From assembly GCA_024279425.1 (NCBI GenBank), contig JAJRRO010000114.1, forward strand, positions 1-55,191: a DNA stretch of 55,191 nt, read 5' to 3'. The position numbers were made by a program, and so were the translations under genes. Source of the stretch: Bacteroidota bacterium (GTDB lineage Bacteria > Bacteroidota > Bacteroidia > Flavobacteriales > Flavobacteriaceae). The notes beneath the pieces are model-generated. The model searched no databases, was not told the origin of the DNA, and saw only the letters and a program-made list of their open reading frames with translations. This document shows, piece after piece, positions 34,592 through 52,656 of the stretch. How positions within the stretch are numbered: position 1 is the stretch's first letter; every line of letters begins with the position of its first letter.

Positions 34592-34657
34592 TCCGACCTT
34601 ATAATTATCAAAGAATATTCAATTTAAAATAAATAGTAAACACAAAAAACAGTAAAA

Positions 34658-35245: not shown

Positions 35246-35270
35246 TCAACAAAAACACCATTTAGAATTT

Positions 35271-35306: not shown

Positions 35307-35323
35307 AACACAAAATCAATCTC

Positions 35324-35668: not shown

Positions 35669-35671
35669 ACT

Positions 35672-36013: not shown

Positions 36014-36024
36014 CCCCAACAAAG

Positions 36025-37207: not shown

Positions 37208-37809
37208 TGGAAAAAGGAAAAACAGCCACCAGAAAAATAGTGGACACAGTTAGAAAGACGGCCACAAAGGCCGGAGCTTCCGTCGTCAAGAATCCTATTT
37301 CGCTTTTATATGTCGGAGGTGGGATTTTGGCTGTTATCGCAGCCTATAAATTGGCGAAATGGGCTAAAGATGCTTCCGATACTGTATCTGGTGACAATAT
37401 CGACAATACTATTCCAGTAAGGGTTATACCAGATACTTCCAGGACAACCATAACCAGAAATGAGGCACGCAATTTTGCCAGTCAATTGTTGACGGCTTTT
37501 AATTGGAAAGGATTTATGCTGTTACCATATCCGCATTATGGGGAAGGAACGGACAACAATGTTGTAAAATCGATATTCGACCGCATCAATAGCGAAGATT
37601 TTAAAGTGATGTACCAGGAATTTGACACCAAAGATTACAATGGTTATAGCTCACCACCTTCGAATATTGGAGGCGGTATTCAAGATGCTCTTGGTATATC
37701 TGAAAAACGGGATTTAGTCTACTGGTTACGCTCAGAACTTGACTTTTTTGATTTCAGTCTTAAAAAGCGAGTAAAGGAAATAGTAGAAGGGGCCGGATTT
37801 ATATTTTAA
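37207..37809 (+). CDS. late membrane protein
   Basis: A 200-residue protein with a basic N-terminus, one membrane helix at about residues 33-52 (LLYVGGGILAVIAAYKLA) and a soluble C-terminal region of about 140 residues (GFMLLPYPHYGEGTDNN). Unrecognised; TAATG coupling upstream. Possibly a virion membrane protein. Confidence 0.5.
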   Translation: MEKGKTATRKIVDTVRKTATKAGASVVKNPISLLYVGGGILAVIAAYKLAKWAKDASDTVSGDNIDNTIPVRVIPDTSRTTITRNEARNFASQLLTAFNWKGFMLLPYPHYGEGTDNNVVKSIFDRINSEDFKVMYQEFDTKDYNGYSSPPSNIGGGIQDALGISEKRDLVYWLRSELDFFDFSLKKRVKEIVEGAGFIF

Positions 37810-37815
37810 AAAACT

Positions 37816-38478
37816 ATGGAAACTGACGCTTTAGAACGGTATTTGGAAAGTATAGGTCACAATGGGCCATACACTACTGACACGCATAAGTGTGGGTGTA
37901 CAAACAACATTTCGACTGCAATAGCTGTGGAACCCATACGAACATCGAACCTGGTAAAATACGATGCCCCATTAACCAAGTCACCCGAAACGATTTTGCC
38001 TTCGGGAAATCGTGTAGATGGCGGTGCCATAGAAGCTGAAATTTTGCCAGTAATTCAGGAAGTTCCAAGTCGAGTTGTAATTGATGAACCTTTATTTGAA
38101 AGGACACCTTCAGTTTCGATCGACCCACTCAATACCATGGTCGGGGAAGTTTCTGTCATTGTTCCTGAAATCGTTCAAGATACAATTGTCACAGATTTTG
38201 TTGATCCATTTGGTAGGACTATTTCTGATTTACCATTGACCGTTACCATCCCCCGGACTTTGACAGACGAATTGCCAATACCCAATATAGATCCAGGGGC
38301 AATACCACCCGCAATTGAAGAAAACCTAAAAACCTCTACCGGAGCGCAGCCGAAGACCACGAACACGGTGGTAAGTAAAAAACCGTCTAAGGCCGGTGGC
38401 TGGCTTTTAGGGCTATTTGTTACGGGTATGATCGTACGTCAATTCATGAAATCGGGCAAGCCGGATAAGAAAGATTAA
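37816..38478 (+). CDS. tail-anchored late protein 1
   Basis: A 220-residue protein with a long acidic, Pro/Val/Ile-rich beta-type region and a single membrane helix close to the C-terminus (GGWLLGLFVTGMIVRQFM), ending in GKPDKKD. N-terminal segment has a CGCTNN motif. First of five consecutive genes with this C-terminal anchor. Confidence 0.5.
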   Translation: METDALERYLESIGHNGPYTTDTHKCGCTNNISTAIAVEPIRTSNLVKYDAPLTKSPETILPSGNRVDGGAIEAEILPVIQEVPSRVVIDEPLFERTPSVSIDPLNTMVGEVSVIVPEIVQDTIVTDFVDPFGRTISDLPLTVTIPRTLTDELPIPNIDPGAIPPAIEENLKTSTGAQPKTTNTVVSKKPSKAGGWLLGLFVTGMIVRQFMKSGKPDKKD

Positions 38479-38518
38479 AGCGGTTCCCCCCTGATCGGAA
38501 ACCATTAAAAAAACGAAT

Positions 38519-38890
38519 ATGCAAACATTTCAAAATACGCTAAGACTACCTGATAATTTCGGTGAATTATTGAAGGGCCGAGATATCTTGGATGGTGTTT
38601 TGTTGTTTGAAGGTGACCCAAGAGCAGAATTGAATTCAGGGCCATTGCCACCAAGGCCACCATTGCAAATCGAGGTGATTACCCCAGAACAATTACAGTC
38701 GATCGCCAAACAGGTCGAGCAACAAAAAATCGATGCTGCCAACCGAACGGGGCCAAAACAATATTTCAAGGCACCAGACCCGAACAAGGATTCGAGTATG
38801 GGGGTGGTTGCGAACGTAGTATTAGGAGTATTGGTTTTTGGAACTATCGTGTTCATTGGAAAAAACAAGGTTAAAAAGGTGAAACTATAA
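38519..38890 (+). CDS. tail-anchored late protein 2
   Basis: A 123-residue protein: N-terminal soluble segment with a Pro-rich stretch (NSGPLPPRPPLQ), a Gln-rich helix, and a C-terminal membrane helix (GVVANVVLGVLVFGTIVFIG) followed by KNKVKKVKL. Unrecognised. Confidence 0.5.
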   Translation: MQTFQNTLRLPDNFGELLKGRDILDGVLLFEGDPRAELNSGPLPPRPPLQIEVITPEQLQSIAKQVEQQKIDAANRTGPKQYFKAPDPNKDSSMGVVANVVLGVLVFGTIVFIGKNKVKKVKL

Positions 38891-38892
38891 TA

Positions 38893-39246
38893 ATGTACAG
38901 AATGGTGATTCATAACGGACATATCAAAGACCAGTACGGTCAACCATTAATAGGTGCCCATATAGTTTTAAAGGGCAACCCAACGATAGGAACCATCACT
39001 GATTTTGACGGTAATTTTCAAATCAGCGGTTCTGAGGGTCAAACATACATGATAGGTCATTTAGGCAAAAAGGCTACTGAAGTAACGCTAAAAAACGGGA
39101 TGCCGTCAGGGCAGTACATTTTAGTGGATGATGCATTCGTACTTGATGAATTTGTGGGTACGGCCCTCAGGAAAAGGAAAAATGTGTTGCTTTCGATTTT
39201 GAGCCTGGCAACGATTTTATTTATAGGAAACAGAATATTCAATTAA
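38893..39246 (+). CDS. tail-anchored late protein 3 with carboxypeptidase-regulatory-like domain
   Basis: A 117-residue protein. Residues about 5-80 match the carboxypeptidase-regulatory-like beta sandwich (IKDQYGQPLIGAHIVLKGN, TDFDGNFQISGSEGQTYM). The end is a membrane helix (LLSILSLATILFIGNRIF). No signal peptide, unlike host TonB-dependent receptors that carry the domain. A paralogue lies at 39695. Confidence 0.6.
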   Translation: MYRMVIHNGHIKDQYGQPLIGAHIVLKGNPTIGTITDFDGNFQISGSEGQTYMIGHLGKKATEVTLKNGMPSGQYILVDDAFVLDEFVGTALRKRKNVLLSILSLATILFIGNRIFN

Positions 39247-39251
39247 CGATT

Positions 39252-39689
39252 ATGAGATACTACGGAAAATACAAAGGGCTTAATGGCAGTAGACCGCAGC
39301 TTACAAAAGTTGAGACGATTACGGCTCCTATTTTCGTACCTGACCCTACACCTTTTGTAGCTCCGTTACCTAGTAATGTTTATGTACCTCCGGTAGACAA
39401 CGGCAATAAATGGTATGATGTGTTGGCCGACTATTTGCCAAAGGTGATAGACTTTGCCAAACCCCTTATTCAATCCAATCAAAACAACGGGCCTATATAT
39501 CAAACACCAGGGATATTTTCAGCACCAGGGAACAACCAACAAAATACCGTTGTGGACCGGAACGCAAAAAATGACGGTACTGGAGAAGATAAAAAGAAGG
39601 GTCTCGGAGATATTATTTCTGAAAATCCAATCGCCACGACCATAGGTGTTTTGGGTCTAGGTTTTTTAGGATTCAAATTTTTAAAATAA
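39252..39689 (+). CDS. tail-anchored late protein 4
   Basis: A 145-residue protein with a Pro-rich N-terminal part (FVPDPTPFVAPLPSNVYVPP), a linker containing PGNNQQNTVVDRNAK, and a C-terminal membrane helix (ATTIGVLGLGFLGFKFL). The linker peptide recurs in the N-terminus of the polyvalent protein at 47966 at about 80% nucleotide identity. Unrecognised. Confidence 0.5.
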   Translation: MRYYGKYKGLNGSRPQLTKVETITAPIFVPDPTPFVAPLPSNVYVPPVDNGNKWYDVLADYLPKVIDFAKPLIQSNQNNGPIYQTPGIFSAPGNNQQNTVVDRNAKNDGTGEDKKKGLGDIISENPIATTIGVLGLGFLGFKFLK

Positions 39690-39694
39690 TAGCG

Positions 39695-40294
39695 ATGTCA
39701 AAAATAATCCATAGCGGTCGAGTTGTAGACGAGAGTGGTCAACCTTTGGTAGGTGCCCATGTTTTGACTGTGAACAGTAATCCAAAACGAGGTGTCATTA
39801 CTGATGCCAACGGCAATTTCAGTGTTGACGGTAGTTTACACGAGGTTTTCGAAATTGGTTTTCTGGGCTTTGAATCTCAAATTTTTAGGCTTGATAAATA
39901 CATGGGCAAACAGACCTACAGACTAAAAGAAGATGCCTACGAATTGGATGGATATACGGGTACACCTTCTAGACAGTTGCCACCCAAAGTTGACCGCAGA
40001 ACCGATACTGAACTTTGGAACATTTTCGGGGGCATTGCAGACGGAATTTTGACCAACGCGAATGTGTTTACACCAATTCAAGCAAGACAAGCACAATTTA
40101 AGGTAGAAACTACAAGCAATGGCCCTGTACTTTTTACGAATCAGATCAAGGCGGGAGATATGGCCAAAAGAGTGCCAACTCCTGAAACTCCTAAAGGTGG
40201 TTTTAAAGATTGGCTGAACAACAACCCCTTAACGGCGGGTGGCCTTTTGTTGGGAGCCTTGGCCATAGGCACATACTATTATACTAATAACTAA
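39695..40294 (+). CDS. tail-anchored late protein 5 with carboxypeptidase-regulatory-like domain
   Basis: A 199-residue protein. Residues about 5-85 form a carboxypeptidase-regulatory-like sandwich (SGRVVDESGQPLVGAHVL, TDANGNFSVDGS), a middle soluble part follows, and a C-terminal membrane helix (PLTAGGLLLGALAIGTYYY) ends the protein. Paralogous to 38893-39246. Might form spikes or host-envelope contacts. Confidence 0.6.
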   Translation: MSKIIHSGRVVDESGQPLVGAHVLTVNSNPKRGVITDANGNFSVDGSLHEVFEIGFLGFESQIFRLDKYMGKQTYRLKEDAYELDGYTGTPSRQLPPKVDRRTDTELWNIFGGIADGILTNANVFTPIQARQAQFKVETTSNGPVLFTNQIKAGDMAKRVPTPETPKGGFKDWLNNNPLTAGGLLLGALAIGTYYYTNN

Positions 40295-40299
40295 CCACA

Positions 40300-40536
40300 A
40301 TGGCAGGTAGGGTAAGCAAAAACAGTAAAGGATACAAAGATTGGCACGGCTACCGACTGTACAAAACTAGCGGTGGTGTATTGCCATACCCAGAGCCAGG
40401 AGATGAAATTAAAGGTCGTGGTGATGGCACACTAGAAGGCGGCTGGCTGGTACACTTAGAGGCAACAGCGAATATCCCCGACATTGCCTTGGCGGTAGAA
40501 GGAGTTAACTATAAACTTTTAACAAAATTCCCATGA
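40300..40536 (+). CDS. small hypothetical late protein
   Basis: A 78-residue soluble protein with a Gly/Asp-rich centre (PEPGDEIKGRGDGTLEGG). Overlaps the next start by ATGA. Unrecognised. Confidence 0.45.
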   Translation: MAGRVSKNSKGYKDWHGYRLYKTSGGVLPYPEPGDEIKGRGDGTLEGGWLVHLEATANIPDIALAVEGVNYKLLTKFP

Positions 40537-40811
40537 ATGCACAAAATTTAATAATCGCAGCGATCGCCATTGGCCAAATAGCCCTTTGGGTTTTTGTCAT
40601 TTACCAATTCAAAAAGAAAAGAAGTAGTGATGCCATAGAATCTAGCGATTCATTGCCCGAATTAAATAAAGAACCCGAAGAGGCTTTAAAATCAATAGAA
40701 AAATTAAGGGAAGAAACCCCGATAGTTTCAATTGACAAGAACAATATAGCGTACCTCCATACCAGGGATGGTCGCGAAATACACAAGTATCAACTAACAC
40801 GAAAAAAATGA
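40533..40811 (+). CDS. small protein with N-terminal membrane anchor
   Basis: A 92-residue protein with an N-terminal membrane helix (LIIAAIAIGQIALWVFVIY) and a charged soluble region. ATGA overlaps on both sides. Unrecognised. Confidence 0.45.
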   Translation: MNAQNLIIAAIAIGQIALWVFVIYQFKKKRSSDAIESSDSLPELNKEPEEALKSIEKLREETPIVSIDKNNIAYLHTRDGREIHKYQLTRKK

Positions 40812-42724
40812 AAAAGTTAATTCTACTCGCAGTATTACTGATTGGGTATATAGGCCAATCACAGATTTATATTGGTTATGCCATAAATGGCAAAAAGACA
40901 AGCGCCCAAATTGCGGCCATTGATGTAAGCAATACCAGTTACATATACACGGCCTATGATACCGATTTGGGGTATGAAGTCATTAATAGTGGTGCTGGTT
41001 GGGGGGCTAGATATATTGCTTCGGGTGTGACATTATCAGGAAACAATACATTCACAGGAACCAATACCTTTCAACAAAGCACAACTTTTGATGTCAGAAA
41101 CGATGCCGTAAACAACAACATGACGTGGAAAGGTAACGTTGCTAGTGGTTTTACACGACTTTATGTCGATTACAACGGAAATGGAAGTGGTTTTTCAAAC
41201 CTAGATATTTATTCAAATGATATAAAATTTAATAATGTAAGTCTTTTAAGCAGCGGCCTAGCGAACATAGTAGAAGATATATCACCTCAATTAGGTGGTA
41301 CACTCGATGCGCTTAAAAATAATATCATAGATGTAAATACTTTTGAAATTGAAAACAGTTTGAGTACGCAAATAATGAGGCAGAATGTAAGCGGTGATTA
41401 TTATGACTTACAACCTCTTCTTAACGCTGTGCCAGGGTCTACACTCCAATACAGTTTTTCGGCTGATAAATGGCAGTTCTTGGGAGCTGTGCAAATGTTC
41501 GCTATTCAAGGCGGTGGTAATCAAATGGTCACCGTTGATAATAATGGTAATATTGGCGCGCAAGCAATCCCAAGCGATAACTCCCTATCCCAAACAAACC
41601 AGGTCATTGTCAACGGCACAACGAGGGCTATCGACGTGCAGCCCACTGGAAAATTGGAAATCACGGTAGGTGCCCAAAAAGTCATAGTGGTAGACGGCCT
41701 TAATAGTGGCGTTGTAGAATTTCCTTTAGGGATTGATTTTAATAATACTTTAAGCGGGTTAACTGCTAATAAGTATAAAGAGGCTATCGATGAAGTTCAG
41801 GGAAATGTTGGCGCAAACGGCACGTCGATTTCTGCCAACGCATCTTCCATTACGGACAATTCCAATTCTATTACAACATTGAACGCTGTGAGTGCATCCC
41901 AGTTTGGGTTTAAGATATTAGCGGTAAACCAAACAGCCATTGCAAATGATGCTCTTGATAGCTTGATAGTAAAATTGAATTACGATAATGAAAGTTTTAC
42001 TATTCCTAGTGGTGTGTTTTCCGTAGGTCAATCAATACGAATTTCAAGACATAAGGAAGCTTTAAACGAAGTTAGAATAATTCAAGGTTCCGGGGTTGAT
42101 ATTTTTGGAGTTACGGACGGCTATTTACTTGGAGCTTATCCATCAGCAACCACAATTACCAGGACAAGCTCGGCCACGGGTCCGGAACAATGGGAAATAG
42201 AAGATTATTTTGATAAGACAAATATAGTTGATTGGACAAGTTGCACGGCCGACCCCAATGAATTGTTCACCACGGCCAATGCGGCCAGTGACCCCAATTG
42301 CAACGAAACGAACGGATTTGCAGGAGTATCCGAAGGCTTGCCAACCGCAAACGTAACAGTAACTGCTGATTCAGGCACAAAGAATGTTGGGGATTATTCG
42401 CTCAAGATATATGCAGACGCCAGTTCATCTTCGTTCATGGAAATCAGTATAAGTGTGGAAAGTGGAAAGACCTATACATTTACGGGCGATTTCATCCAGA
42501 CTATAGGAACAACAGCAATAGTGCACACGACCGCAGGGGGTAGTCTTGTAACGGGCGAACCGTCTTTTAGTGCGATTTCCGAAGGCACCTGGGGGAGTAA
42601 AACATTCACGATTGTGTGCACAAGTACTGGAACTCTTGATATAGGCGTATATGCTGCAAATAGCGGAACAATAGGCGATACTGTTTTTGCGGATAATATT
42701 AGCATAATATGGGCAACTACATGA
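40808..42724 (+). CDS. exported spike/fibre-like protein 1
   Basis: A 638-residue protein with an N-terminal Sec signal peptide (MKKLILLAVLLIGYIGQSQ), then Asn/Thr/Gly-rich repeats (SGNNTFTGTNTFQQSTTF) that resemble fibre proteins of flavobacterial prophages. The C-terminal part (about 500-638) looks like a carbohydrate-binding beta sandwich. Probably the receptor-binding or shaft part of a spike. A signal peptide on a fibre-like protein is unusual in tailed phages. ATGA overlap with the next gene. Confidence 0.55.
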   Translation: MKKLILLAVLLIGYIGQSQIYIGYAINGKKTSAQIAAIDVSNTSYIYTAYDTDLGYEVINSGAGWGARYIASGVTLSGNNTFTGTNTFQQSTTFDVRNDAVNNNMTWKGNVASGFTRLYVDYNGNGSGFSNLDIYSNDIKFNNVSLLSSGLANIVEDISPQLGGTLDALKNNIIDVNTFEIENSLSTQIMRQNVSGDYYDLQPLLNAVPGSTLQYSFSADKWQFLGAVQMFAIQGGGNQMVTVDNNGNIGAQAIPSDNSLSQTNQVIVNGTTRAIDVQPTGKLEITVGAQKVIVVDGLNSGVVEFPLGIDFNNTLSGLTANKYKEAIDEVQGNVGANGTSISANASSITDNSNSITTLNAVSASQFGFKILAVNQTAIANDALDSLIVKLNYDNESFTIPSGVFSVGQSIRISRHKEALNEVRIIQGSGVDIFGVTDGYLLGAYPSATTITRTSSATGPEQWEIEDYFDKTNIVDWTSCTADPNELFTTANAASDPNCNETNGFAGVSEGLPTANVTVTADSGTKNVGDYSLKIYADASSSSFMEISISVESGKTYTFTGDFIQTIGTTAIVHTTAGGSLVTGEPSFSAISEGTWGSKTFTIVCTSTGTLDIGVYAANSGTIGDTVFADNISIIWATT

Positions 42725-44715
42725 GAAGGTTAATTTGGTTAATGGTTTTAGTCCCGTTACTGTCTTTTGGTCAGACAATTCGGGAGGCAACGGCTACAGG
42801 CGCGGGAACACACGACGGGACATCGGTAGCGAATGCCTGGAGTTATGCGGAGGCTTTTGCACAGGCTACTGGTCACATGATAGTTAACATGAAGGCTGGA
42901 AATGATGTCACTAATGGCTATAACATTCCGAACAGTGGACTATCCGCAACGCAAAGATTGCATTTTAGAGGGTATAAAACTGCCGCAGGGGATGTAGTTA
43001 GTTCAAACGGCTCAACATTTGTTCGGACAAATACAAGCACTTTCCCCTCATCTTCAGATATGCCTTATCTGGACGGCCCTGATTTGGCGGGAAAATATGG
43101 TGTAATCATTTCTGGTAGTTATATAACCGTCGAAAATATACAGGTACGGGATTTTGATTGGGGTTTTATTTCGTCTGGATTGGATGCTAAAATGATTAAT
43201 GCTATAACCTATTCATGTAATTCAGGTTTTTTGCTCAATAGAAGTCTAAACGGTGGAGTATTGGAAAACTCATACGTTCTTAATTCTGGAAACACAGGAA
43301 TAAATATACAAGGTGGAAAGGACTATACCGTCAAATACAGTCAAGTACGGACGGACGACCCCGCCTCACAGTTTCCAAACGACCCTAATCCATTGATTGG
43401 ATATTATTTCGCTACGACTTTGGGGGCCAGGAACAATATTATAGAGAACTGTACGGCATATAGAATCCCAGCAACAGGTGGCGGAACCTATCACCAAGGA
43501 CACGGATTCGTTGGAAAAGCCGATAGTCAAAATAATATTTACAGAAACAACACGGCATACAATACTGGTATTGAGGTCAATTTTTCGGATGTTACCAATA
43601 ACACTTTTGAGAATATAAAAATCTATGGAGAATATACGGCCAATCCTGGACAGTTTTCAGCAGGGATAAGAATCATTAATGGAGCTTCAGGAAACACCTT
43701 TAAAAATATTTATATAGAGGACACGAGGTATGCATTCAACTTCCATGACTTTGACGACGGTTACACGCCTAGTCCTGATACCGATGCAATCGAAGGAGGG
43801 CATGACAATGATTTTATCAATGTGGTTGTCAATGGTATGAATACATTGACAGCCTACACGGAGTCACCGGCGAGCAATGCTGTGTCGTCCAACAATACTT
43901 GGTACAATTGTACTTTCTATAATTCGACAGGTGGCGGTGGGTTGATAAATGGCCAGCAAGTAGTTACGAATGAAAATTTTATCAATTGTGTTTTTGACAA
44001 TTTCGACAACCCTTATATGTCGGACATTTCTGGGAATGGGTCATTAGGTTTAACTTTTCAATACACCAACTTTTCAAATAATAGCTTTACCACTCCAACA
44101 GGCACAAACATAACCACCCATGCACCTAGCTTTGTAGGTCCTTTGACTTCGGATGTAGGCTTTAAACTGCAATCAGGTAGTTTGTTAAAGGATATAGGAA
44201 AAACCGAGGTTCTGGCAAATTCAGATTATGAAGGTAATTCTAGGCCCGCAGGGTCAAGTTTTGATTTAGCGGCCTTTGAAGAGGGTTCTGGTGGTGGTGG
44301 TGATGTAACCGCACCCACCGAAAGCAACGTAACAGTAAGTAATATAAGCGATACTAATGTAGATATAGACTTTAATGTAGATGAAGGGTCTTATTTTCAT
44401 GTTTTTTATGACACTAATACAGGTTCTGCCACACTATCGGTTGACGAGAATACATTAGTTGATTACCCTAATTCAGGGTTTGATTACGATTTAAGCTTTC
44501 CAACTTTTGTATTAACAAGTTTAGGTGATTGTTCGGGATGTAGTCCCTTAATTTCAGGAACAACCTATTTTTTTAGGATAAGGCTTGAAGATGCTGCGGG
44601 GAATGTAGGCGCAAGTTCGGAATATTCATTTACAACAGCTGGAAGTCCATCAGAACCAACCCCACCTACTCTAGGAGGTGTTAAGAGTCGATTTTTAAAA
44701 CGTAAAAAAATGTAA
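42721..44715 (+). CDS. exported beta-helix spike-like protein 2
   Basis: A 664-residue protein with a signal peptide (MRRLIWLMVLVPLLSFGQ), a right-handed parallel beta-helix (short repeats such as NSGNTGINIQGGKDYTV and NGASGNTFKNIYIEDTR) up to about residue 500, and a fibronectin type III-like domain near the end (TAPTESNVTVSNISDTNVDI). Beta-helix proteins of this kind act as polysaccharide-binding or degrading spikes. The last residues are basic (GGVKSRFLKRKKM). I start at the ATG overlapping the upstream stop. Confidence 0.6.
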   Translation: MRRLIWLMVLVPLLSFGQTIREATATGAGTHDGTSVANAWSYAEAFAQATGHMIVNMKAGNDVTNGYNIPNSGLSATQRLHFRGYKTAAGDVVSSNGSTFVRTNTSTFPSSSDMPYLDGPDLAGKYGVIISGSYITVENIQVRDFDWGFISSGLDAKMINAITYSCNSGFLLNRSLNGGVLENSYVLNSGNTGINIQGGKDYTVKYSQVRTDDPASQFPNDPNPLIGYYFATTLGARNNIIENCTAYRIPATGGGTYHQGHGFVGKADSQNNIYRNNTAYNTGIEVNFSDVTNNTFENIKIYGEYTANPGQFSAGIRIINGASGNTFKNIYIEDTRYAFNFHDFDDGYTPSPDTDAIEGGHDNDFINVVVNGMNTLTAYTESPASNAVSSNNTWYNCTFYNSTGGGGLINGQQVVTNENFINCVFDNFDNPYMSDISGNGSLGLTFQYTNFSNNSFTTPTGTNITTHAPSFVGPLTSDVGFKLQSGSLLKDIGKTEVLANSDYEGNSRPAGSSFDLAAFEEGSGGGGDVTAPTESNVTVSNISDTNVDIDFNVDEGSYFHVFYDTNTGSATLSVDENTLVDYPNSGFDYDLSFPTFVLTSLGDCSGCSPLISGTTYFFRIRLEDAAGNVGASSEYSFTTAGSPSEPTPPTLGGVKSRFLKRKKM

Positions 44716-44726
44716 AATAGAATAGG

Positions 44727-45035
44727 ATGAAAAAATGGATTGAAACATTGTCAACAGGTCAAAAAATATTGGTTAGGACATTCTTCTTTTTATTGGGAAT
44801 GACCCTATTGGTCATTGTCTTTTATGCCGGGGGCATGGAAATGCTATTGCTTACCGAAAAAAAAACCGACTGGACTGCCATGCATTCCATTTTTGCAGGG
44901 TCGGGTGTCGTTTGTATTGCTATTAGTCTCGCACTAAGTAGGCTTACATCGGTTTTTGATGTTGTGATTCAAGGCGGGAAAAAGCTTATTGGAATACCTT
45001 CAAAACCTAAAAATAGAGAAAACGACAATGTATAG
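44727..45035 (+). CDS. small membrane protein, possible holin
   Basis: A 102-residue protein with two membrane helices (ILVRTFFFLLGMTLLVIVFYA and FAGSGVVCIAISLALSRL) and a basic C-terminal tail. Size, position just before an amidase and topology fit a class II holin. Unrecognised by family. Confidence 0.5.
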   Translation: MKKWIETLSTGQKILVRTFFFLLGMTLLVIVFYAGGMEMLLLTEKKTDWTAMHSIFAGSGVVCIAISLALSRLTSVFDVVIQGGKKLIGIPSKPKNRENDNV

Positions 45036-45225
45036 ATTTTTGGAAATACAACCAGATTTGAAACCCCTTTTTATAGGGGTGATCGGTCTTTTGTCCAGCC
45101 TTATCATTGAGGCCGTTTCCGGCGACCCAATTTTTGTAGTGCTCAAATATTTGGCATTGATAATCCCGATCGCATTTACCCTCCATCGATGGTACATTAT
45201 GATCAAAAAAAATAAGAAAAAATGA
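45028..45225 (+). CDS. small membrane protein, possible holin/antiholin
   Basis: A 65-residue protein with two membrane helices (LFIGVIGLLSSLIIEAVSG and YLALIIPIAFTLHRWYIM) and a Lys-rich end. Overlaps the preceding gene and the next one (ATGA). Holin-like. Confidence 0.45.
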   Translation: MYRFLEIQPDLKPLFIGVIGLLSSLIIEAVSGDPIFVVLKYLALIIPIAFTLHRWYIMIKKNKKK

Positions 45226-45350
45226 AAAATTCATTCTTAAGATTTTGGAACCGATTATCCCAGTTGACCACCGAATTTAACTTTTGGTTTTATACGCACT
45301 TGGTAGCGGCTTTATTATTAGGCTTGGCTCTCCATGCAATATTTTATTAA
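45222..45350 (+). CDS. 42-residue single-membrane-helix protein
   Basis: A 42-codon ORF beginning on the preceding stop (ATGA): a basic amphipathic N-terminal helix (MKNSFLRFWNRLSQL) and a membrane helix (HLVAALLLGLALHAIFY). Too short for automatic gene calling but tightly coupled. Probably part of the lysis or virion membrane set. Confidence 0.45.
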   Translation: MKNSFLRFWNRLSQLTTEFNFWFYTHLVAALLLGLALHAIFY

Positions 45351-45360
45351 ATCAAGATAA

Positions 45361-45960
45361 ATGCAAAAACTCATTCCCATATTGGATAATGGCCACGGCG
45401 GCATTATCAATGGTAGATACCAAACGGGGGGCAAACGCTCTCCAAATTGGGATATGGGTGTTTTGTATGAAGGTGCTTTTAACCGATGGATAGTTAACGG
45501 CATTATGATGGTGTTGGATCAATTGCAAATCCCTTACTATCATGTTTCACCGGAATTAAGGGATGTATCATTGAATGCCAGGGTTGCGAGGGCTAATAAA
45601 ATATATCAGGAAAACCCGAATACTTACCTGTTATCCATTCATGCAAATGCAGGTGGTGGCGAAGGTATTGAGGGGTTTACAAGTGTGGGAGATACTGCTA
45701 GTGATCCTATTGCCGAACGCTTCCTTGAAGTTCTAGAAAACGACCTTCCAAAAGAAAAAATGCGCTTTGACAGATACTCGGACGGTGACAGGGACAAAGA
45801 GGCAAATTACCGGGTACTTTCAAAAACCAATGGCAGGGCCATATTATTGGAATTGGGTTTTATGGACCACCCCGAAGATTACAAAAGACTATGGGATCCC
45901 TGGAACCGTCAAGAAAAAATCAATTCGATTGTTCATGTGATCAAAGAACTACACGTATGA
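45361..45960 (+). CDS. N-acetylmuramoyl-L-alanine amidase (Amidase_3), endolysin
   Basis: A 199-residue zinc amidase that cleaves the bond between MurNAc and L-Ala. Zinc ligands are His12 in LDNGHGG, Glu37 in LYEGAF and His94 in LSIHANA; the catalytic Glu is in ILLELGFM near residue 168. No signal peptide, so a holin or membrane failure is needed for access, consistent with the small membrane proteins just upstream and the Rz-like gene downstream (ATGA overlap). Confidence 0.85.
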   Translation: MQKLIPILDNGHGGIINGRYQTGGKRSPNWDMGVLYEGAFNRWIVNGIMMVLDQLQIPYYHVSPELRDVSLNARVARANKIYQENPNTYLLSIHANAGGGEGIEGFTSVGDTASDPIAERFLEVLENDLPKEKMRFDRYSDGDRDKEANYRVLSKTNGRAILLELGFMDHPEDYKRLWDPWNRQEKINSIVHVIKELHV

Positions 45961-46556
45961 AATGGCCAATCTACATTTTAATTTTTGTTGTCTTAAGTGC
46001 AATTGCATATTTGGGTTACGACTATGCGGAAACCAAGCAAGAAAATAAGCACTTAAAAGCAAATCAAAAAGAGTTGCTTTACGAAAATGAAACCTTGGTA
46101 ACCAATCTAAACCTTACCCAAAAAGAACTTTCAGAATTTGTAAAAATACGTTTCCCAGCTTTAAAAGCAAAAATAGATAGTGCGAACATTAGATCCCGAA
46201 CTATTGAAAAAATAGTTGTCCAAAAAGTAATTTACAAGGATACAACGAGCCGTAAAACTGATTTGAAACCAGTTGTTGAAGCTATTCAAAAGGGCATTTA
46301 TATAAAAGAGCCTTTTGCCGATATCTCCCACTGTATGATTATTCGAGGTTTTGTTGAATACGATGGTAAAAAGATGAACATAACGATCTCAGATCGTGAA
46401 TTTAAAAGCATCAATCAGGCTGTAAGTTATTGGGAGCGCAAACAATGGAAGTTATGGTTTATTAAGTCCAGATGGTTTGGAAAAAAAGAAATAAAGGTTA
46501 CTGTTTTCAATAGTTGTGGGGAAAGTAAAACAGTAGTCGTTAATAGAAAGGAGTAA
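45957..46556 (+). CDS. Rz-like spanin / membrane-anchored coiled-coil protein
   Basis: A 199-residue protein that begins MKWPIYILIFVVLSAIAYLG, an N-terminal inner-membrane anchor, followed by a coiled coil (ETKQENKHLKANQKELLYEN and further heptads) and a basic globular C-terminus. The architecture is that of i-spanins, though it is longer than typical Rz. I start at the ATG overlapping the amidase stop rather than an upstream codon in the amidase gene. No overlapping o-spanin is evident. Confidence 0.55.
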   Translation: MKWPIYILIFVVLSAIAYLGYDYAETKQENKHLKANQKELLYENETLVTNLNLTQKELSEFVKIRFPALKAKIDSANIRSRTIEKIVVQKVIYKDTTSRKTDLKPVVEAIQKGIYIKEPFADISHCMIIRGFVEYDGKKMNITISDREFKSINQAVSYWERKQWKLWFIKSRWFGKKEIKVTVFNSCGESKTVVVNRKE

Positions 46557-46557
46557 A

Positions 46558-46926
46558 ATGATGGCAACAAAATTGAACTATAAGCAAGTGGCATTCCAGG
46601 CAGCAATATATGCTTTTGCCTTCGGGATGGTGAATAAGCTAATGGCCCCTAAAAAAAGAATAGGGCTTGACATGAAGACTCTTGCTTTTCTGCCCTTGGA
46701 GCACCAGGCCATATTTGCTGATCATGTAACGGTAGAAAACGCAGGTAGTTCTATTTGGTTGGTTGAACAAATGGCCAATCAGGACACCGAAGACCCGAAT
46801 TTGTACAAAGACATCAACAAAACCAGCATTGGTAATTTGGCCTATATAGCTATTCACGGGAGCAACGAGCCAGCCCGTAAAAAAAGTCTAAGGATATTGG
46901 AGAACATTAAAAGTCTTTGGGCGTGA
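46558..46926 (+). CDS. hypothetical late protein
   Basis: A 122-residue protein with a hydrophobic N-terminal helix (VAFQAAIYAFAFGMVNKL) and a soluble remainder. Sits between the Rz-like and M23 genes with a GTGA overlap to the latter. Unrecognised. Confidence 0.45.
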   Translation: MMATKLNYKQVAFQAAIYAFAFGMVNKLMAPKKRIGLDMKTLAFLPLEHQAIFADHVTVENAGSSIWLVEQMANQDTEDPNLYKDINKTSIGNLAYIAIHGSNEPARKKSLRILENIKSLWA

Positions 46927-47408
46927 TAAACAAAAAGCACATAGCAATTGGTACGGGTGTAGGTGCCGTTATCTTGTGGCTTGTTTTTAAGACGAAAGCC
47001 AAGTTTCATCAATTGGTCAAAGGTCAAAAAGTCCGGGGTGATGATGCATATGGCAACGGTGTTTTTGGCGCACCAAGAACCCATGATGGTGACCACAACG
47101 GCCTTGACATTGTTGCTCAACCAGGAGAAGCAATTTATAGTCCTGTTGATGGGAAAATAAAACAATATTCTTATCCCTATCCCGATAAATCATTTTCCGG
47201 ATACCATTTATTGACCGACAAATATTTGATTAAACTTTGGTATTTAGCGCCAACACTACATCCAGGAGATCTGGTAAAGGCAGGTCAGGTGATTGGTTTT
47301 GCCCAGAATTTGGGCGCACGATATCCTGGAATAACAAACCATGTTCATATGGAAGTCTGGGATTTAAGGAAAATGAATGTAGCTATTGATCCAGCATTAT
47401 TATTCTAA
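46923..47408 (+). CDS. membrane-anchored M23 (LytM-type) peptidase
   Basis: A 161-residue protein starting with a membrane anchor (HIAIGTGVGAVILWLVF) and carrying an M23 endopeptidase domain: His58 and Asp62 in HNGLDI and a later HVHME. It would cut peptidoglycan crosslinks. The start I favour is GTG overlapping the preceding stop. In tailless membrane-containing phages a small membrane-linked lytic enzyme often sits in the virion and opens the cell wall on entry; that role is inferred. Confidence 0.75.
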   Translation: MINKKHIAIGTGVGAVILWLVFKTKAKFHQLVKGQKVRGDDAYGNGVFGAPRTHDGDHNGLDIVAQPGEAIYSPVDGKIKQYSYPYPDKSFSGYHLLTDKYLIKLWYLAPTLHPGDLVKAGQVIGFAQNLGARYPGITNHVHMEVWDLRKMNVAIDPALLF

Positions 47409-47438
47409 TCGGAGAGTAACTTTTAAAATATTCGAACT

Positions 47439-47894
47439 ATGAAAATGAAGTATCTATTATACGGAGCTTTGGCCCTAGTGGGCATTTCCGCAATCAGAAC
47501 AAAGGGTTTTGAGATCAAAGAAGTGTTGCCGCAATTAAAGGCAACGCTTAGTGCTATTCGTAAGGTAGGCTTTTCAAGACAGGGCATTAACGCCATGATA
47601 GATGTTACGGTTAAAAACCCATCCAACAAAGCTTTGAATGTTGCTAGTGCCGGAGCGGTCACTATTAGCAAATTATTGGTCTATGACCGTCAAAACAATT
47701 TAGTGGCAACAGCGGCCCCAAATATCAATGCCCTTAGTATTCCGGCAGGTGGAGAAATAGTATTGAAGAACATTCCTTTGGAAAGCACCTTTAAAGGTAT
47801 TGTCAATTCTCTTTTAGGAGGCTTTAGCACCAACCCCGATGACTACAGGATAGAAGCCGAAATAAACGCTTTGGGCACCATGATAACGGTATAA
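47439..47894 (+). CDS. LEA14-like (WHy-domain) membrane-anchored protein
   Basis: A 151-residue protein with an N-terminal hydrophobic anchor (YLLYGALALVGISAI) and a beta-rich domain with KNPSNKALNVASAGAV and IPAGGEIVLKNIP, the pattern of LEA14/WHy domains. Such domains are found in stress and some secretion or virion proteins. Role in this element unknown. Confidence 0.55.
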   Translation: MKMKYLLYGALALVGISAIRTKGFEIKEVLPQLKATLSAIRKVGFSRQGINAMIDVTVKNPSNKALNVASAGAVTISKLLVYDRQNNLVATAAPNINALSIPAGGEIVLKNIPLESTFKGIVNSLLGGFSTNPDDYRIEAEINALGTMITV

Positions 47895-47965
47895 ATTACG
47901 TTGCTGGCCAGCAACTTCAAAATTGGCGTTAGGATACTGACATCTAACTTAAAGAAATCCCCAAT

Positions 47966-49168
47966 ATGAAAACTGCGATACAAAAATTCAATGCTTTAAA
48001 TGGAAAGACCGTTACAAGAAAGGAGTTGCTTGAGATAAAAGAATTGGCAACCTCCCCGGATCAAAAAGAAGTTGTGAAGCGTATTGATGAACTATTACAA
48101 TCGCATCCTAAAAAGTGGTTTTCGATGAAGGCCGATACTTTTCAAATCCAATTAAAGTCAAAGGTCAAATCTTCAACACCTGGTGGCAACAAACAAAATG
48201 CCGTTGTGGACCAGAACGCGAAAAAAGGTGATACTGGAGAGCGGGGGTTAGGGGCTGGGTTGGATGAATTGCATGGGCTTGAATGTTTTAATTTATTGGA
48301 TTTTCACCCTGGTCAATCTTCACTCGACCCAATAGGATTGGCTAAAGCTGTTTCTTCCGATGATATATATCAGACCATTACAGATAGCATTGTAAAAATG
48401 CTGGAAAAGGAAATTGATTGGGAGAAGGAATGGAACCCCGGCCAAAACGGATTCCTTTACGCTTATAATTTTGACACAAAGAAACCCTATAGAGGTATCA
48501 ATTCGATAATGTTGGGGAGTAAATACATATTTGACCCATCAGAACCGTTGTTGGAAAACCCCTATTATCTGACCTTTAACCAGATAACCAAAAGAAATGG
48601 GAAAGTGAAAAAAAGGGCTAAAGCACATTTGGCCATTTATTTCACAAAACTGTATCACTACCAACAGGGTGAACCTGCATTGGAATTTGGCACGTATGAC
48701 CGAAAAAAAATGATCGCTTTCCTTAATAAGAACAGAAGCAAGATTTCACTTTTTAAAAAGTTGACCGCCGAACAGATTGCCGACCAAAGTTATCTTCCCG
48801 TTCTTAAATATTACAATGTTTTTAATGGTGCCGATATCGAAGGGGTCGATTTTGACCTGGACAACTTTAAGGGAGCTGGTCAGTTGAAATCAGGAAAACA
48901 GGAAAAACCAGAAAAACTGGAAATTTCCGAGGCAATCATCAATAGCTATCCCAAACCAAGTCCTACGCTTAAATATGGGGGCAATAGGGCATTTTTTAGA
49001 CCAAGCTCCGATTTGGTGCAAATGCCCAATATTGAACAGTTCAAATATGTACAGGCATATTATACAACTTTCTTTCATGAACTGATCCACAGTACGGGCA
49101 GTAAAAAAAGGTTAGATCGGGTAATGGGCAAAAGTTCGGTGACAAGGACTACGCCTTTGAAGAACTGA
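47966..49168 (+). CDS. polyvalent protein, N-terminal part: ArdC-like domain and zincin peptidase (frame-disrupted)
   Basis: The first 400 codons of what looks like one gene continuing to 51000. After a 60-residue helical start comes a PGGNKQNAVVDQNAK linker, then an ArdC N-terminal-like domain (ITDSIVKMLEKEIDWEKEWN, YRGINSIMLG, YLTFNQITKRNGKVKK), then a zincin peptidase with FHELIHSTGSKKRLDR (His371 and His375). The frame shifts near 49131-49136: the expected FGDKDYAFEELIAELGASF continues in the -1 frame. A deleted T in a TTT run explains it best. These polyvalent proteins are carried by phages and conjugative elements and are thought to enter the host with the DNA. Confidence 0.7.
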   Translation: MKTAIQKFNALNGKTVTRKELLEIKELATSPDQKEVVKRIDELLQSHPKKWFSMKADTFQIQLKSKVKSSTPGGNKQNAVVDQNAKKGDTGERGLGAGLDELHGLECFNLLDFHPGQSSLDPIGLAKAVSSDDIYQTITDSIVKMLEKEIDWEKEWNPGQNGFLYAYNFDTKKPYRGINSIMLGSKYIFDPSEPLLENPYYLTFNQITKRNGKVKKRAKAHLAIYFTKLYHYQQGEPALEFGTYDRKKMIAFLNKNRSKISLFKKLTAEQIADQSYLPVLKYYNVFNGADIEGVDFDLDNFKGAGQLKSGKQEKPEKLEISEAIINSYPKPSPTLKYGGNRAFFRPSSDLVQMPNIEQFKYVQAYYTTFFHELIHSTGSKKRLDRVMGKSSVTRTTPLKN

Positions 49169-49224
49169 TCGCTGAACTTGGGGCCAGTTTTTTAAGTGCC
49201 GAATCAGGTATATTACATTTCACC

Positions 49225-51000
49225 ATGCGTAATAGTGCAGCCTATATAAAAGGGTGGAGAAAGAACCTTTTGGCCATGGTCAAAAAAGATAATCGCTTTT
49301 TCTTTAGGGCTGCTAGTAAGGCCCAAGCCGCTGCCGATTTTATGTTGCAGAAAGATAAAAATGGAAAACCAAAGTATTTGAAAAACAAGGATGCTTTAGA
49401 GAAACCAGTATCACTATTGGATCAAAGGAAACCGGTTAAAAAACTTACGTACCAGGAAATAGAGGAAATTGGCAAAGAGTATGGGAAAGATATACTTTGG
49501 AAAAAGCCGATTGTCGATTACATCAAAGAAGTTTTGAAGGAAAAGAAAAGGCGCGATAATATCCATAAATCCGTATTCAATAGAGACAATAAAAAGTCCA
49601 CCCCCAAAAGAAAGGTTACTGCAGGAAAGCAATTGGGACTTTTCGGCACAATTCCTAAAAACCCAACGGTAGAATCCGCATTGGCCTATGCGGATAAACA
49701 TCTGGTAGGTACATCGATTTATCATGCAGATGTGCAAAAAAAGGTAGTTTTCACGAAGCGGGGAATTAAAAAAGCCCTGAACGGTACCGGTAGAGTTACC
49801 AGAACTCGCATACAATTGGTATTCATTGCCAAAGACCTATTAAAAAAGGCCAGGCTTCATAGCAGTGAAAAAGATAAAAAACGGGCCAAATCCGGTAATG
49901 TTTTTCATACCCTTAGAACCAAAGAGATTTTCGACGGACAAACTTTTGAAGTGATCATTAAGTTAAAGGAGTCCACCAATGGAACTATTTATTACGATCA
50001 TACCGAAATACAACTAAAAAAGCAACTTAGCGTACCGCATGAAGTTCCCAATGGAAAATCAAAATCGTTAAGACGTGCCAAGTTGCCTTCCGAGAACAAA
50101 GTTACAAAAACTGGGCCAAAGCAAAAAAAAGGGTTGAGCCAACCTATAGTATTGGACGCGGGAACTTCACTTAACCCCGTTCAGCCAAAACGGGCGGCAC
50201 ATAATGGGGATGCTGCCGCTTCCGTTTTGGAAATCCCTGTAATTTCGGAAGAAGTCAATCCAATTCCCCAGGTTCTGGACATACCTACAAAAAAACCGTT
50301 GCCAGCTCGCGTAAATCCCAAATCAAAGAAAGTACTCAGTAGTGGCGACTTAATGAACATGCATTTTGAGAGTTTGGACTTCGACGGTGCCTGGGCGGAA
50401 TTTATGCAAAACCCTGCAAAGAACATGCGATTAGCCATAAAAGGAAAGCCAAAAAATGGTAAAACATCAGGTAGTGCCACTTTTGCGAATTATTTGACCA
50501 GGTTTGGCAATGTGCTATATAATTTCGTTGACCAGGGCTTTAACAAAAGCACTAAGGATATTTGGCAGTTGGCTGGTCTCGCGGACAATCCCAGAGCCTT
50601 TGCTTCCGATATAGATAATCTGGAAGAATTGGAGCGGGAAATTGCCACTGGAAACTATCAATTTGTATTCATAGACATGATCAATGATTATATTGATAAA
50701 AGCGGAATCGGCCCCCAAGAATTTAAAGATCGGTTCATTAAAAAGTATAATGATGTAAGTTTTATGTTGGTGTTCGAGGTTACCAAGTCAGGAGATTTTA
50801 AAGGCAATCAAAAGTGGACACATCTTGTAGATGCCATCGTGGACGTTGAAAATTTTGTCATGTACAATAAAGGCAGGTATGGTATGGGCCACTTTGTGAT
50901 TTGGCCAGAAGGTTTGAAAAGGCTAGACCCAAAAAAGTATGCCGAATTGATTGGTAAAGAAAATGAACAGGAGGTATCTGGCCCAACAGTTTTGTTTTAG
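49225..51000 (+). CDS. polyvalent protein, C-terminal part: LPD3-like and RadA-like ATPase domains
   Basis: Continuation of the preceding frame; the open frame actually starts at 49135 and would give about 1011 residues joined. It contains a further peptidase-associated segment, an LPD3-like domain (KKVVFTKRGIKKALNG...EIFDGQTFEVIIKLK...YYDHTEIQL), a charged linker, and a C-terminal RecA-fold domain: Walker A GKPKNGKT (50443-50466), Walker B FVFIDMIND, and EVTKSGDFKGNQKWTHLVDA, which follows RadA/Sms-type ATPases. A packaging or DNA-protection role is possible. A terminator follows. Confidence 0.65.
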   Translation: MRNSAAYIKGWRKNLLAMVKKDNRFFFRAASKAQAAADFMLQKDKNGKPKYLKNKDALEKPVSLLDQRKPVKKLTYQEIEEIGKEYGKDILWKKPIVDYIKEVLKEKKRRDNIHKSVFNRDNKKSTPKRKVTAGKQLGLFGTIPKNPTVESALAYADKHLVGTSIYHADVQKKVVFTKRGIKKALNGTGRVTRTRIQLVFIAKDLLKKARLHSSEKDKKRAKSGNVFHTLRTKEIFDGQTFEVIIKLKESTNGTIYYDHTEIQLKKQLSVPHEVPNGKSKSLRRAKLPSENKVTKTGPKQKKGLSQPIVLDAGTSLNPVQPKRAAHNGDAAASVLEIPVISEEVNPIPQVLDIPTKKPLPARVNPKSKKVLSSGDLMNMHFESLDFDGAWAEFMQNPAKNMRLAIKGKPKNGKTSGSATFANYLTRFGNVLYNFVDQGFNKSTKDIWQLAGLADNPRAFASDIDNLEELEREIATGNYQFVFIDMINDYIDKSGIGPQEFKDRFIKKYNDVSFMLVFEVTKSGDFKGNQKWTHLVDAIVDVENFVMYNKGRYGMGHFVIWPEGLKRLDPKKYAELIGKENEQEVSGPTVLF

Positions 51001-51023
51001 AATTTGAGTTAGTTGGTTAGTTG

Positions 51024-51057
51024 AAAAAGCGATGCTCTAGGGTGTCGCTTTTTTTTA
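51024..51057 (+). terminator. terminator at the end of the late operon
   Basis: AAAAAGCGA pairs with TCGCTTTTT around TGCTCTAGGGTG and is followed by a further T run. It closes the rightward operon. Confidence 0.8.
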
Positions 51058-51121: not shown

Positions 51122-51343
51122 GATATCGATAGTTATCCCGGTCTTTGGATTTTTCGAGTGAGAGCCATGTAAAATGATATCATTTTGTTCGCCGGTCTTC
51201 ATTGGCCATACATGAGCTGCGGTAAAATCGATATCATTTTTTCATCCGGACAGCGATTTTCTGACAGAATTTTTGATGCAATCGATATCATTCTTCTTCC
51301 TGGTCTTCGCCATGGGGTAATGAGTTGGTTACGTTTCGATATC
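51122..51343. repeat. five GATATC sites phased at exactly 54 bp
   Basis: GATATC occurs at 51122, 51176, 51230, 51284 and 51338: four successive steps of exactly 54 bp. The first four are followed 16 bp later by CCGGTCTT or a close variant, and the middle three by CATT plus a T/C-rich run. A degenerate GATAAC sits one more step to the left (51068). The last sites run into the end of the minus-strand gene at 51288. Candidate iterons, partition site or operator array. Two more sites with the same step are at 27344 and 27398. Confidence 0.8.
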
Positions 51344-51602
51344 GTTTAATGTTGTTTTCAAGTTCTACTAGGGTCTTGGAGCTTTTATCACTTATGCTTT
51401 CCATACCCCGTTCCAATAAATATGCCTTCGCTCTGAGCATTGCATTGTCATCTTGCAGGTTTTCGATTATACTTTCCTGGTGCTGAAACCGCAATAATAC
51501 CTTAAGTACCGCATTGGCCGTTGTCTTTTCGTCGAAACGAGACTTGGCGTAGTTTACGGCATCCTGGTATTTTTGTGCTATGTTTTTACAAAGGATGTTC
51601 AT
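51288..51602 (-). CDS. hypothetical coiled-coil protein
   Basis: A 104-residue helical protein (ENLQDDNAMLRAKAYLLERG, ELENNIKRYRNV) with an acidic end. Its last codons overlap the phased GATATC array, so the gene may be regulated by, or encode a ligand of, those sites. Unrecognised. A CAACAAAA site lies in its 5' leader in sense orientation. Confidence 0.5.
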   Translation of the reverse strand: MNILCKNIAQKYQDAVNYAKSRFDEKTTANAVLKVLLRFQHQESIIENLQDDNAMLRAKAYLLERGMESISDKSSKTLVELENNIKRYRNVTNSLPHGEDQEEE

Positions 51603-51666: not shown

Positions 51667-52380
51667 TTATGGTCCTGATAGGGCATTCATGAAATAGCTG
51701 CGTTCCAAAGCGGTCATTCGCTCAAATTTTTTAGTCAGGTGCTTGCGCTTACGTTTGTAGTCGTGGCGTTCACGATAATCATTGCCCATGTATCTATAAT
51801 CATGGAGTTCTTTGGGAGGTTCATAGTTGAAGTAAACCGTTTCGGTGGCCATGCCGTGCCTGGTCTTTGCTTCAAAACTAATTTTGTTCCAACCTTTTAG
51901 ATTTGACTCATACACCTTGTTATCGTAGGTACTGATCAAAACAGGTGAGCAACTAAAATTGTTGGCCCTTTCCAATATTTCCAGGTGGTCGGCTTCGGTA
52001 AGTTCATAAGGATAGCGATGTTTGCTTTTACGGTCTTCAGGTCGATACGTAGGATCCAGGTAATGTACAACATGGTGTTGATCCATGTTAATGTTCAGCA
52101 CATCCCGCCAATCCGTAGTAAGGAAGTTGGTGTTAGGGGCGAAAATGTCGAGCGTACTGGTCTGTTTCCAGTAAATCTCCCAAGCTTTGACAACATCTTT
52201 ATTAATGTCGTTCAAATACCAATTCTGACAAGGTTTAATGTTTCGGGTAATGCCACAATGGCCTAAAAAGGGAATGACCAGGGTGTTGTGAGGCGGTATC
52301 AGGTTAATGATCTGCTGGTAAGTTCCAGACCCGCCTTTGCCTCCGAAATAGCCTTCGAGGGCGTTGACTTTAAAACTCAT
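51667..52380 (-). CDS. D12-class (Dam-like) adenine-specific DNA methyltransferase
   Basis: A 237-residue methylase with YFGGKGGSGTYQQIINLI and PFLGHCGITRNI (AdoMet region), and YLDPTYRPEDRK, where Dam enzymes usually have DPPY; here it reads DPTY. The C-terminal end is basic (DYKRKRKHLTKKFERM). It could protect element DNA against restriction or regulate timing. It lies alone at the right end, pointing inward. Confidence 0.75.
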   Translation of the reverse strand: MSFKVNALEGYFGGKGGSGTYQQIINLIPPHNTLVIPFLGHCGITRNIKPCQNWYLNDINKDVVKAWEIYWKQTSTLDIFAPNTNFLTTDWRDVLNINMDQHHVVHYLDPTYRPEDRKSKHRYPYELTEADHLEILERANNFSCSPVLISTYDNKVYESNLKGWNKISFEAKTRHGMATETVYFNYEPPKELHDYRYMGNDYRERHDYKRKRKHLTKKFERMTALERSYFMNALSGP

Positions 52381-52528
52381 AATGTGGTGGTTTCGGTAAC
52401 TTTAGTTTTAGATCCCGCAACGCTTAAAAAAGATGTGTATGATCAATCACCTACATTTTTGACGTTACGATATCATGGTAATACGAAAGTAGAAAAATAT
52501 TTCGAAAATCTCAAAAGATTCAATGATT

Positions 52529-52547
52529 CAGGCATTATTCAGGCATA
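52529..52547 (+). promoter_or_regulatory. right arm-type integrase-binding repeats (inferred)
   Basis: CAGGCATT at 52529 and CAGGCATA at 52540, 11 bp apart and about 62 bp from attR, share their unit with the three copies upstream of the integrase gene. Expected for the P' arm of a tyrosine recombinase. The remaining gene-free sequence to attR shows only an AAAGGTC/GACCTTT inverted repeat near 52583. Confidence 0.5.

Positions 52548-52608: not shown

Positions 52609-52656
<48 letters not shown>

Follow-up and report, generated by a model that had tools for sequence, protein, structure and literature searches.

The window analyzed here, by which we mean the whole 55,191-nucleotide stretch of DNA, carries what we describe, with reserve, as a prophage-like element of ~41.9 kb that is integrated at a tRNA-Ala gene and is possibly tailless. 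The tRNA-Ala lies at 10663–10739, and the 48 nt of its 3′ end (10692–10739, plus strand, the attL side) recur as a perfect copy at 52609–52656 (plus strand, attR), which sets the extent of the element. Within these boundaries lie an integrase-like gene (10869–12002, with sub-threshold Pfam integrase matches, E = 6e-4 and 0.004), an HTH repressor gene (21777–22310) with the early genes to its right, up to 28.9 kb, and a late operon spanning 32214–51000, which also encodes ArdC-type, amidase, and M23 peptidase domains. The last gene of this operon (49225–51000, plus strand) encodes LPD3 and ATPase domains with a RadA-like profile match, and served as our marker for finding relatives. It is followed by a terminator-like hairpin (51023–51054, plus strand), by the array of GATATC sites that is our main subject (51122–51343), by a 104-aa ORF (51288–51602, minus strand), the 3′ part of which extends into the array, and by a gene resembling D12-class adenine methyltransferases (51667–52380, minus strand). 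We note that motif IV of the latter reads DPTY instead of [DNS]PP[YFW], and that the protein, judged by this motif, is possibly altered or inactive.

Of nine element proteins searched against both Pfam and PHROGs, five remained without a match in the two databases at E ≤ 1. For one of these five (34658–35245), structure prediction gives a beta-rich model (pLDDT 72) with weak matches to the capsid proteins of SH1 (TM about 0.45) and P23-77 (VP17). Phages of the Salisaeta icosahedral phage 1, P23-77, and SH1 type have two single-beta-barrel capsid proteins (PMC6356626). The element may share a beta-rich capsid-like candidate with these tailless phages; however, the fold matches are weak and concern a single modeled protein, the top-ranked PDB matches are cellular proteins such as furin, and the ATPase of the element matches RadA. 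We found no description of this family of Flavobacteriaceae prophage-like elements, and neither such an array nor such an element is named in the open-licence PMC papers searched; in PMC7911831, GATATC is mentioned solely as an absent 6-mer.

The array consists of five GATATC sites on the plus strand, at 51122–51127, 51176–51181, 51230–51235, 51284–51289, and 51338–51343, which delimit four cells, u1 (51122–51175), u2 (51176–51229), u3 (51230–51283), and u4 (51284–51337), with the fifth site closing the array. Recounting in the sequence confirmed the exact 54-bp steps reported by an earlier, sequence-only reading of this DNA, as well as its view that the phasing is beyond chance: of 200 Markov-shuffled versions of the window, 117 had an equally spaced chain of two GATATC sites (spacings of 15–500 bp) as their longest, and 83 had no chain beyond a single site. 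When the right half of the element was scanned for phased motifs in general, period 54 reached a score of 0.79, compared to 0.58 in the best of 5 shuffles. The same reading held that four of the five sites are followed 16 bp later by a common motif or a one-step variant of it. This is correct for u1 and u2, which carry CCGGTCTT (at 51138 and 51192), and for u4, which carries CTGGTCTT (at 51300), one change away, whereas u3 has a degenerate CCGGACAG, three changes away. Site 5 has no tail behind it, and the +16 motif is a property of the intervals between sites. The degenerate GATAAC that had been pointed out one step to the left, at 51068, is indeed in phase, but it has no tail and we do not count it as a copy. 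TGAG recurs at +37 (in the same counting as +16) in cells u1, u2, and u4 and in the second locus described below, and is missing from u3. Only at site 2 is the A/T-flanked dyad perfect (AAAATGATATCATTTT); it is imperfect at the others.

The sequence-only reading placed the array where the late operon ends, and this is correct. More precisely, it lies 3′ of the hairpin, between this operon and the convergent minus-strand genes and away from gene starts. A role as operator of the minus-strand gene, which had been among the suggested functions, is disfavored because the array sits at the 3′ end of that gene: the last site is inside the 3′ part of ORF 51288–51602, and the array is not upstream of it.

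Searching the host genome with the array returned one further significant place, 27340–27413 on the minus strand, at 76% identity. This second locus, which emerged from a similarity search rather than a pattern search, is an inverted repeat of 51166–51239 (74 nt, 76% identity), and lies ~23.7 kb from the array in the opposite orientation. It comprises one inverted cell (27344–27403, minus strand), with two GATATC sites 54 bp apart (27344 and 27398), the tail CCGGTCTC at +16, and TGAGCT at +37. Any GATATC pair 54 bp apart occurred in 1 of 400 shuffles, and GATATC-N10-CCGGTCT in none of 400; the looser GATATC-N10-C(C/T)GG is present five times in the window, each time within the array or the second locus. 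The existence of this inverted locus strengthens the view that the phased DNA sites form a genuine array, the part of the earlier account that stands, while none of the roles proposed there has been established.

The second locus sits between two early genes, just past the gene for a 613-aa winged-helix-like protein (25152–26993, plus strand) and its neighbor, in a gap of 108 bp (27342–27449) that also contains a REP-like sequence at 27413–27435. The latter, GTCATCCTGAGCGCAGTCGAAGG, is found at 12 places in the host genome with at most one mismatch, its own place included. The gene order 25152–27009–27450 recurs in relatives, and in all 8 comparable loci, that is, those with recognizable homologues of both 27009 and 27450, the homologous gap measures −4 to +11 bp, compared to 108 bp in the window. 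By eye, four more loci (L142, L147, L148, and L149) have an ATG within about 15 bp of the stop, and in another (L136) there is nothing clear after the stop. Because the 108-bp stretch is missing from all 8 comparable relatives, the second locus appears, most simply, to have been gained in this lineage.

The five cells available for comparison, four from the array and one from the second locus, are conserved unevenly. GATATC is invariant in 7 of 7 copies, a figure that is inflated in that GATATC itself helped to define the copies and that GATAAC at 51068, although in phase, is left out, and 6 of the 48 interior columns are invariant. Mean interior identity is 0.46, compared to 0.26 ± 0.02 after permuting the letters within each cell, and interior distances amount to 0.76–1.65 substitutions per site in nine of ten pairs, with 0.40 in the tenth (u2–B). 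Cell length is constant, with no base gained or lost in any of the five cells. Since GATATC and length are kept while the interiors are ~46% identical, the site and its spacing look constrained, and we infer that they have been selected while the interiors drift. Comparison of u2 with the second locus gives blocks of identity along the cell of 22/24, 4/12, 6/8, 2/5, and 11/11 (with block limits chosen after inspection), an alternation that is as expected if the cell offers separate contacts, although the cells probably also share an ancestor. The cells also show a weak self-dyad (0.33 vs 0.25, p = 0.016), on which our conclusion does not lean.

Similarity that extends across much of the 54-bp repeat (0.46 vs 0.26 permuted) would also be left by a relic, an old tandem repeat or REP/MITE-like insertion that has no present role and is decaying, generated by duplication of the 54-bp unit or by repeated insertion of a small GATATC-ended unit, with one copy moved in inverted orientation to 27.3 kb. 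The position of the second copy in a 108-bp insertion beside a REP-like sequence, where passive insertion is possible, fits this account, as does the lack of the array in the searched relatives. So, too, does the fact that 54 bp corresponds to 18 codons: a plus frame is open over sites 2–5 (51173–51349), the second locus has an open plus frame over 27311–27496, and the cells resemble each other at the residue level in two frames. However, the two open frames run in opposite directions relative to the cell, no single frame stays open in the two loci or through all five sites (on which grounds we also rejected a tandem coding repeat), and the codon-phase identities of 0.50/0.48/0.42 are without a strong third-position signal. 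In addition, neutral decay to ~0.46 should not spare GATATC in seven copies, or length in five of five cells. We regard a relic as doubtful, although it ranks first among the rival accounts.

To place the array among relatives, we used the ATPase and the 613-aa early protein. ATPase matches at E ≤ 1e-8 occur in 21 of 397 family genomes, the window's own included, many of them partial; ATPase-domain loci in GTDB genomes number 15 at 46–62% identity (14 from a named genus and one from a "Bacteroidia bacterium"), and IMG/VR provides three weak loci. Six records are common to the 15 GTDB loci and to a set of 10 ATPase places, and we count 15 distinct ATPase loci. The 613-aa protein matched 17 of the 396 other family genomes, from 16 of which 17 loci were taken, the weak G426 being left out; one of these Rep-like loci contains a masked stretch. 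Some of the ATPase relatives keep the late genes in order. The array is absent from all of the 15 distinct relatives' loci found through the ATPase, and neither a GATATC pair at 54 bp nor a tailed site is present in these 15 loci (264 kb) or in the 17 loci of the 613-aa protein (299 kb). Most of the fetched loci span ±10 kb or less, such that the ATPase loci cover the array position and mostly not the early cassette, and the Rep-like loci cover the early cassette and mostly not the array position. The whole-genome search across the family, which was for the exact triple GATATC only, therefore matters: among the 397 family genomes, a triple at 54-bp spacing is present in the window's own and in no other. 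The phased-motif scan likewise scored at most 0.63 in relatives, compared to 0.60–0.65 in shuffles and 0.79 in the window, and further loci, including the 17 Rep-like ones (scanned without shuffles), contained nothing comparable, their high values looking like tandem repeats.

In IMG/VR, triple GATATC at 54 bp occurs in 40 loci, most of which resemble tandem repeats and some of which (e.g., L025 and L034) resemble chance, and none of the 40 has both a C(C/T)GG tail and a partner 54 bp away; GATATC-N10-CCGGTCT-N15-TGAG occurs there in 7 loci, none with GATATC at +54. IMG/VR scans with proteins 34658, 25152, 32214, and 27818 returned no relative, and the searches of the phage and plasmid record sets gave no match. 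A DNA search of 12 genus genomes gave weak matches (up to E = 1) in all, with E < 0.02 at the element's own two loci only, and among 395 order genomes only the element's own genome matched at E ≤ 1e-4. Sequence shared between the early cassette and the tail of the element scores 56.8 bits in the window, compared to a maximum of 34.0 in 40 shuffles. The corresponding values are 28.3 vs 31.1 for the Bizionia element and 41.1 vs 35.4 for the Cochleicola element, the latter from a gapped, AT-rich alignment of 60% identity that we distrust, and in the Pustulibacterium element the comparison (without shuffles) gave only the element's own end overlap. Because the relatives' loci and the other family genomes lack the phased sites, the array is, by these sequence comparisons, a lineage-specific feature. 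The sequence-only reading had named beforehand, as the finding that would speak against it, homologues with the same genes and no phased sites, and this outcome occurred: the relatives examined share genes with the element and have no phased GATATC sites. This counts against an essential family-wide role and not against a lineage-specific one. If the array is what we propose below, it also suggests that such arrays can be gained within one lineage and are dispensable to relatives.

Separately, we note that one relative's contig of 34,930 bp (L076, L077) has ends that overlap by 46 bp, and probably represents an element of this family in circular, extrachromosomal form, and that another locus (L139, 14090–14721) has dense CCGGT-rich short repeats near a contig end, in which we saw no resemblance to the 54-bp cell.

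If a protein occupies these sites, two products of the early cassette are candidate binders. The first is the 613-aa protein, which is winged-helix-like around residues 187–255 in our reading of its model (pLDDT 69.6, pTM 0.39) and Rep-like at best. Its best fold match is 4pql, a DNA-binding protein N-terminal domain (not significant, E = 0.21), which we take to be plasmid RepA; single members of its family show sub-threshold HTH matches, and the protein itself has a sub-threshold ParBc_2 match (E = 0.052). As the 17 loci of this gene elsewhere (mostly ±10 kb) lack a GATATC pair at 54 bp, either the protein has undergone a change of specificity or the binder is another protein. The second candidate is a 194-aa protein (27818–28402, plus strand) in which Pfam recognizes a DnaA C-terminal domain (E = 3.4e-10). 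No homologue of it turned up in 328 other family genomes (E ≤ 1e-10), in the fetched ATPase or Rep-like loci, or in IMG/VR. Within the searched sets it is thus restricted to its own element, in parallel to the array, although this is a single case. DnaA boxes are not enriched (16 found vs 18.0 expected).

The binder could also be encoded elsewhere, with the element exploiting sites for the protein of a helper or another replicon. SGI1, an integrative element, is reported to hijack the parABS of its helper (PMC10954446), and no element protein is an obvious binder. However, exact matches to the 15-mer dyad pattern AAANSGATATCATTT in the 5.27-Mb host genome number 2, both of which are within the element, and the searched plasmid and phage sets contain no record matching the array, leaving hijacking with a very slim chance of being correct. 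Allowing up to two mismatches, the dyad pattern occurs 162 + 193 (355) times in the host genome, compared to 117 + 126 (243) for a backward-read control; since it is commoner than the control, a host protein with a loose site stays among the conceivable binders.

Taking these observations together, we tentatively propose, as the likeliest single role although short of a probability, that the array provides cooperative docking sites for an element-encoded protein, which would either link the array to the early cassette by bridging or be titrated between the two. In this model, the five sites would be bound as double-stranded DNA by a dimeric, cooperative protein, most likely encoded by the element itself. 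The GATATC dyad with its A/T flanks would be the main contact, with CCGGTCTT and TGAG as secondary contacts within each 54-bp cell, and the fixed spacing would stack adjacent complexes in a constant geometry. The inverted cell at 27344–27403 in the early operon would then be the regulatory partner of the array: protein on the five-site array and on the two-site locus would bridge both, or be shared between them, and thereby hold back the early/replication cassette or set its timing, much as auxiliary operators or the "handcuffing" loci of plasmids do. Were this correct, the element would provide a compact two-locus control site in a poorly known, possibly tailless Flavobacteriaceae prophage family, and the cell could serve as DNA bait for a regulator of that family. 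A bolder version, to which we assign a small chance, is that GATATC–CCGGTCTT–TGAG over 54 bp represents a new kind of long-period, multicontact cell, and that the two inverted loci, bridged by a dimeric protein (perhaps the DnaA-domain protein 27818–28402), switch the element between integrated and replicating states.

The placement of the two loci could alternatively reflect a local role in transcription, with the array acting as a roadblock or terminator aid and 27344–27403 as an operator or roadblock within the early operon. The array does lie between convergent genes and 3′ of a terminator-like hairpin, and the second locus between two early genes (promoters of this bacterial group are outside the coverage of the promoter scan). 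Nevertheless, a roadblock would need fewer than five phased sites, the late operon is already followed by a terminator-like hairpin, and the repressor region (about 22270–22347) has its own ATGGGC..GCCCAT-like dyad and, by eye, no GATATC, which also led us to turn down the sites as CI operators. A purely local role in transcription is, in our assessment, unlikely.

Among known systems, the architecture resembles that of F plasmid sopC or of remote inc repeats, although this is an analogy. F parS has twelve 43-bp tandem repeats with ten 16-bp inverted repeats (PMC6238139), and sopC and the array both have several palindromic sites at a fixed tandem period, which bind protein in sopC and putatively do so in the array. 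This parallel, together with the terminal overlap of the 34,930-bp contig, as in a circular replicon, would suit a centromere-like partition site of an excised extrachromosomal form, as the sequence-only reading had suggested. However, the period is 54 rather than 43 bp, and the 5 + 2 sites are divided over two inverted loci with diverged interiors. No ParA or ParB is recognized at the Pfam cutoff in the 52 element ORFs, the sub-threshold ParBc_2 match above being the nearest to one, and the element, being integrated, is passed on with the chromosome. With the examined relatives also lacking the array, we consider a partition site distinctly improbable.

A second comparison is with the iteron/inc control loci of plasmids such as P1, which are similar in having two separate site clusters per replicon, one of them beside a Rep-like gene; here, two GATATC sites follow the Rep-like 25152/27009 genes. 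Iterons are direct repeats of about 20 bp, and a 54-bp period is longer than usual. The sites of the array are instead palindromes 54 bp apart, the initiator (Rep-like) identity of the neighboring gene rests on a nonsignificant fold match, and the Rep-like gene loci of relatives (17 loci from 16 genomes) are without a GATATC pair at 54 bp. Both iterons and handcuffing are mentioned in PMC7157519. A CRISPR array is alike in its alternation of a ~25-bp repeat with a ~30-bp variable stretch; however, the repeats here are not near-identical (their cores are ~65% identical), no Cas family is above the Pfam cutoff in the 52 ORFs, and there is an inverted single-cell copy elsewhere, and we rejected this reading.

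Finally, the array adjoins the late operon, the att site, and the methyltransferase-like gene, as would a pac-like site for the initiation of packaging, possibly a methylation-sensitive one. Against such a site, no terminase or portal is found at the Pfam cutoff (52 ORFs) or in PHROGs (20 proteins), the ATPase profile match is to RadA, and the methyltransferase-like gene has DPTY in motif IV. Moreover, in an Aequorivita locus (L092), the ATPase and methyltransferase genes occur in the same order, followed by an integrase-like gene (by eye), without the array. A packaging site is thus very unlikely.

Other readings were set aside on their own results. As a structured RNA, the 341-nt region folds no better than shuffles (z = +0.75 and +0.54 for the two strands, with 80/100 and 69/100 shuffles folding as well), an alignment of the five cells in the plus sense folds at −1.6 kcal mol–1 with two-sided changes in 0 of 6 pairs, and Rfam has no match at the array, the tRNA being its only match in the window. 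In the case of integrase arm sites, arm-like TTCAGGCATT repeats are found beside attL and attR, at 10830–10866 and 52526–52546, and the array ends about 1.2 kb inward.

The element has further repeats and cargo in its remaining parts. A perfect 20-bp tandem, TTTCGAGCGAAAGCGTACCG, is present in 2.2 copies at 32128–32172, just 5′ of the first late gene, and is a possible activator site of the late promoter. In the left part, a gene for a PemK/MazF-like toxin (12115–12471, above the Pfam cutoff, E = 1.2e-11) lies near the integrase-like gene, and PADLOC gives candidate defense matches to PDC-S31 (14296–15105, E = 9.6e-17), PDC-M48B (15300–16205, E = 5.8e-145), and PDC-M48A (16207–16698, E = 8.2e-64), from which 14296–16698 is probably defense cargo. 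Three 94-nt direct repeats at 14100, 16712, and 17428 (the second and third with 81% and 87% identity to the first) are arranged around the cargo genes, and are perhaps cassette-type recombination sites.
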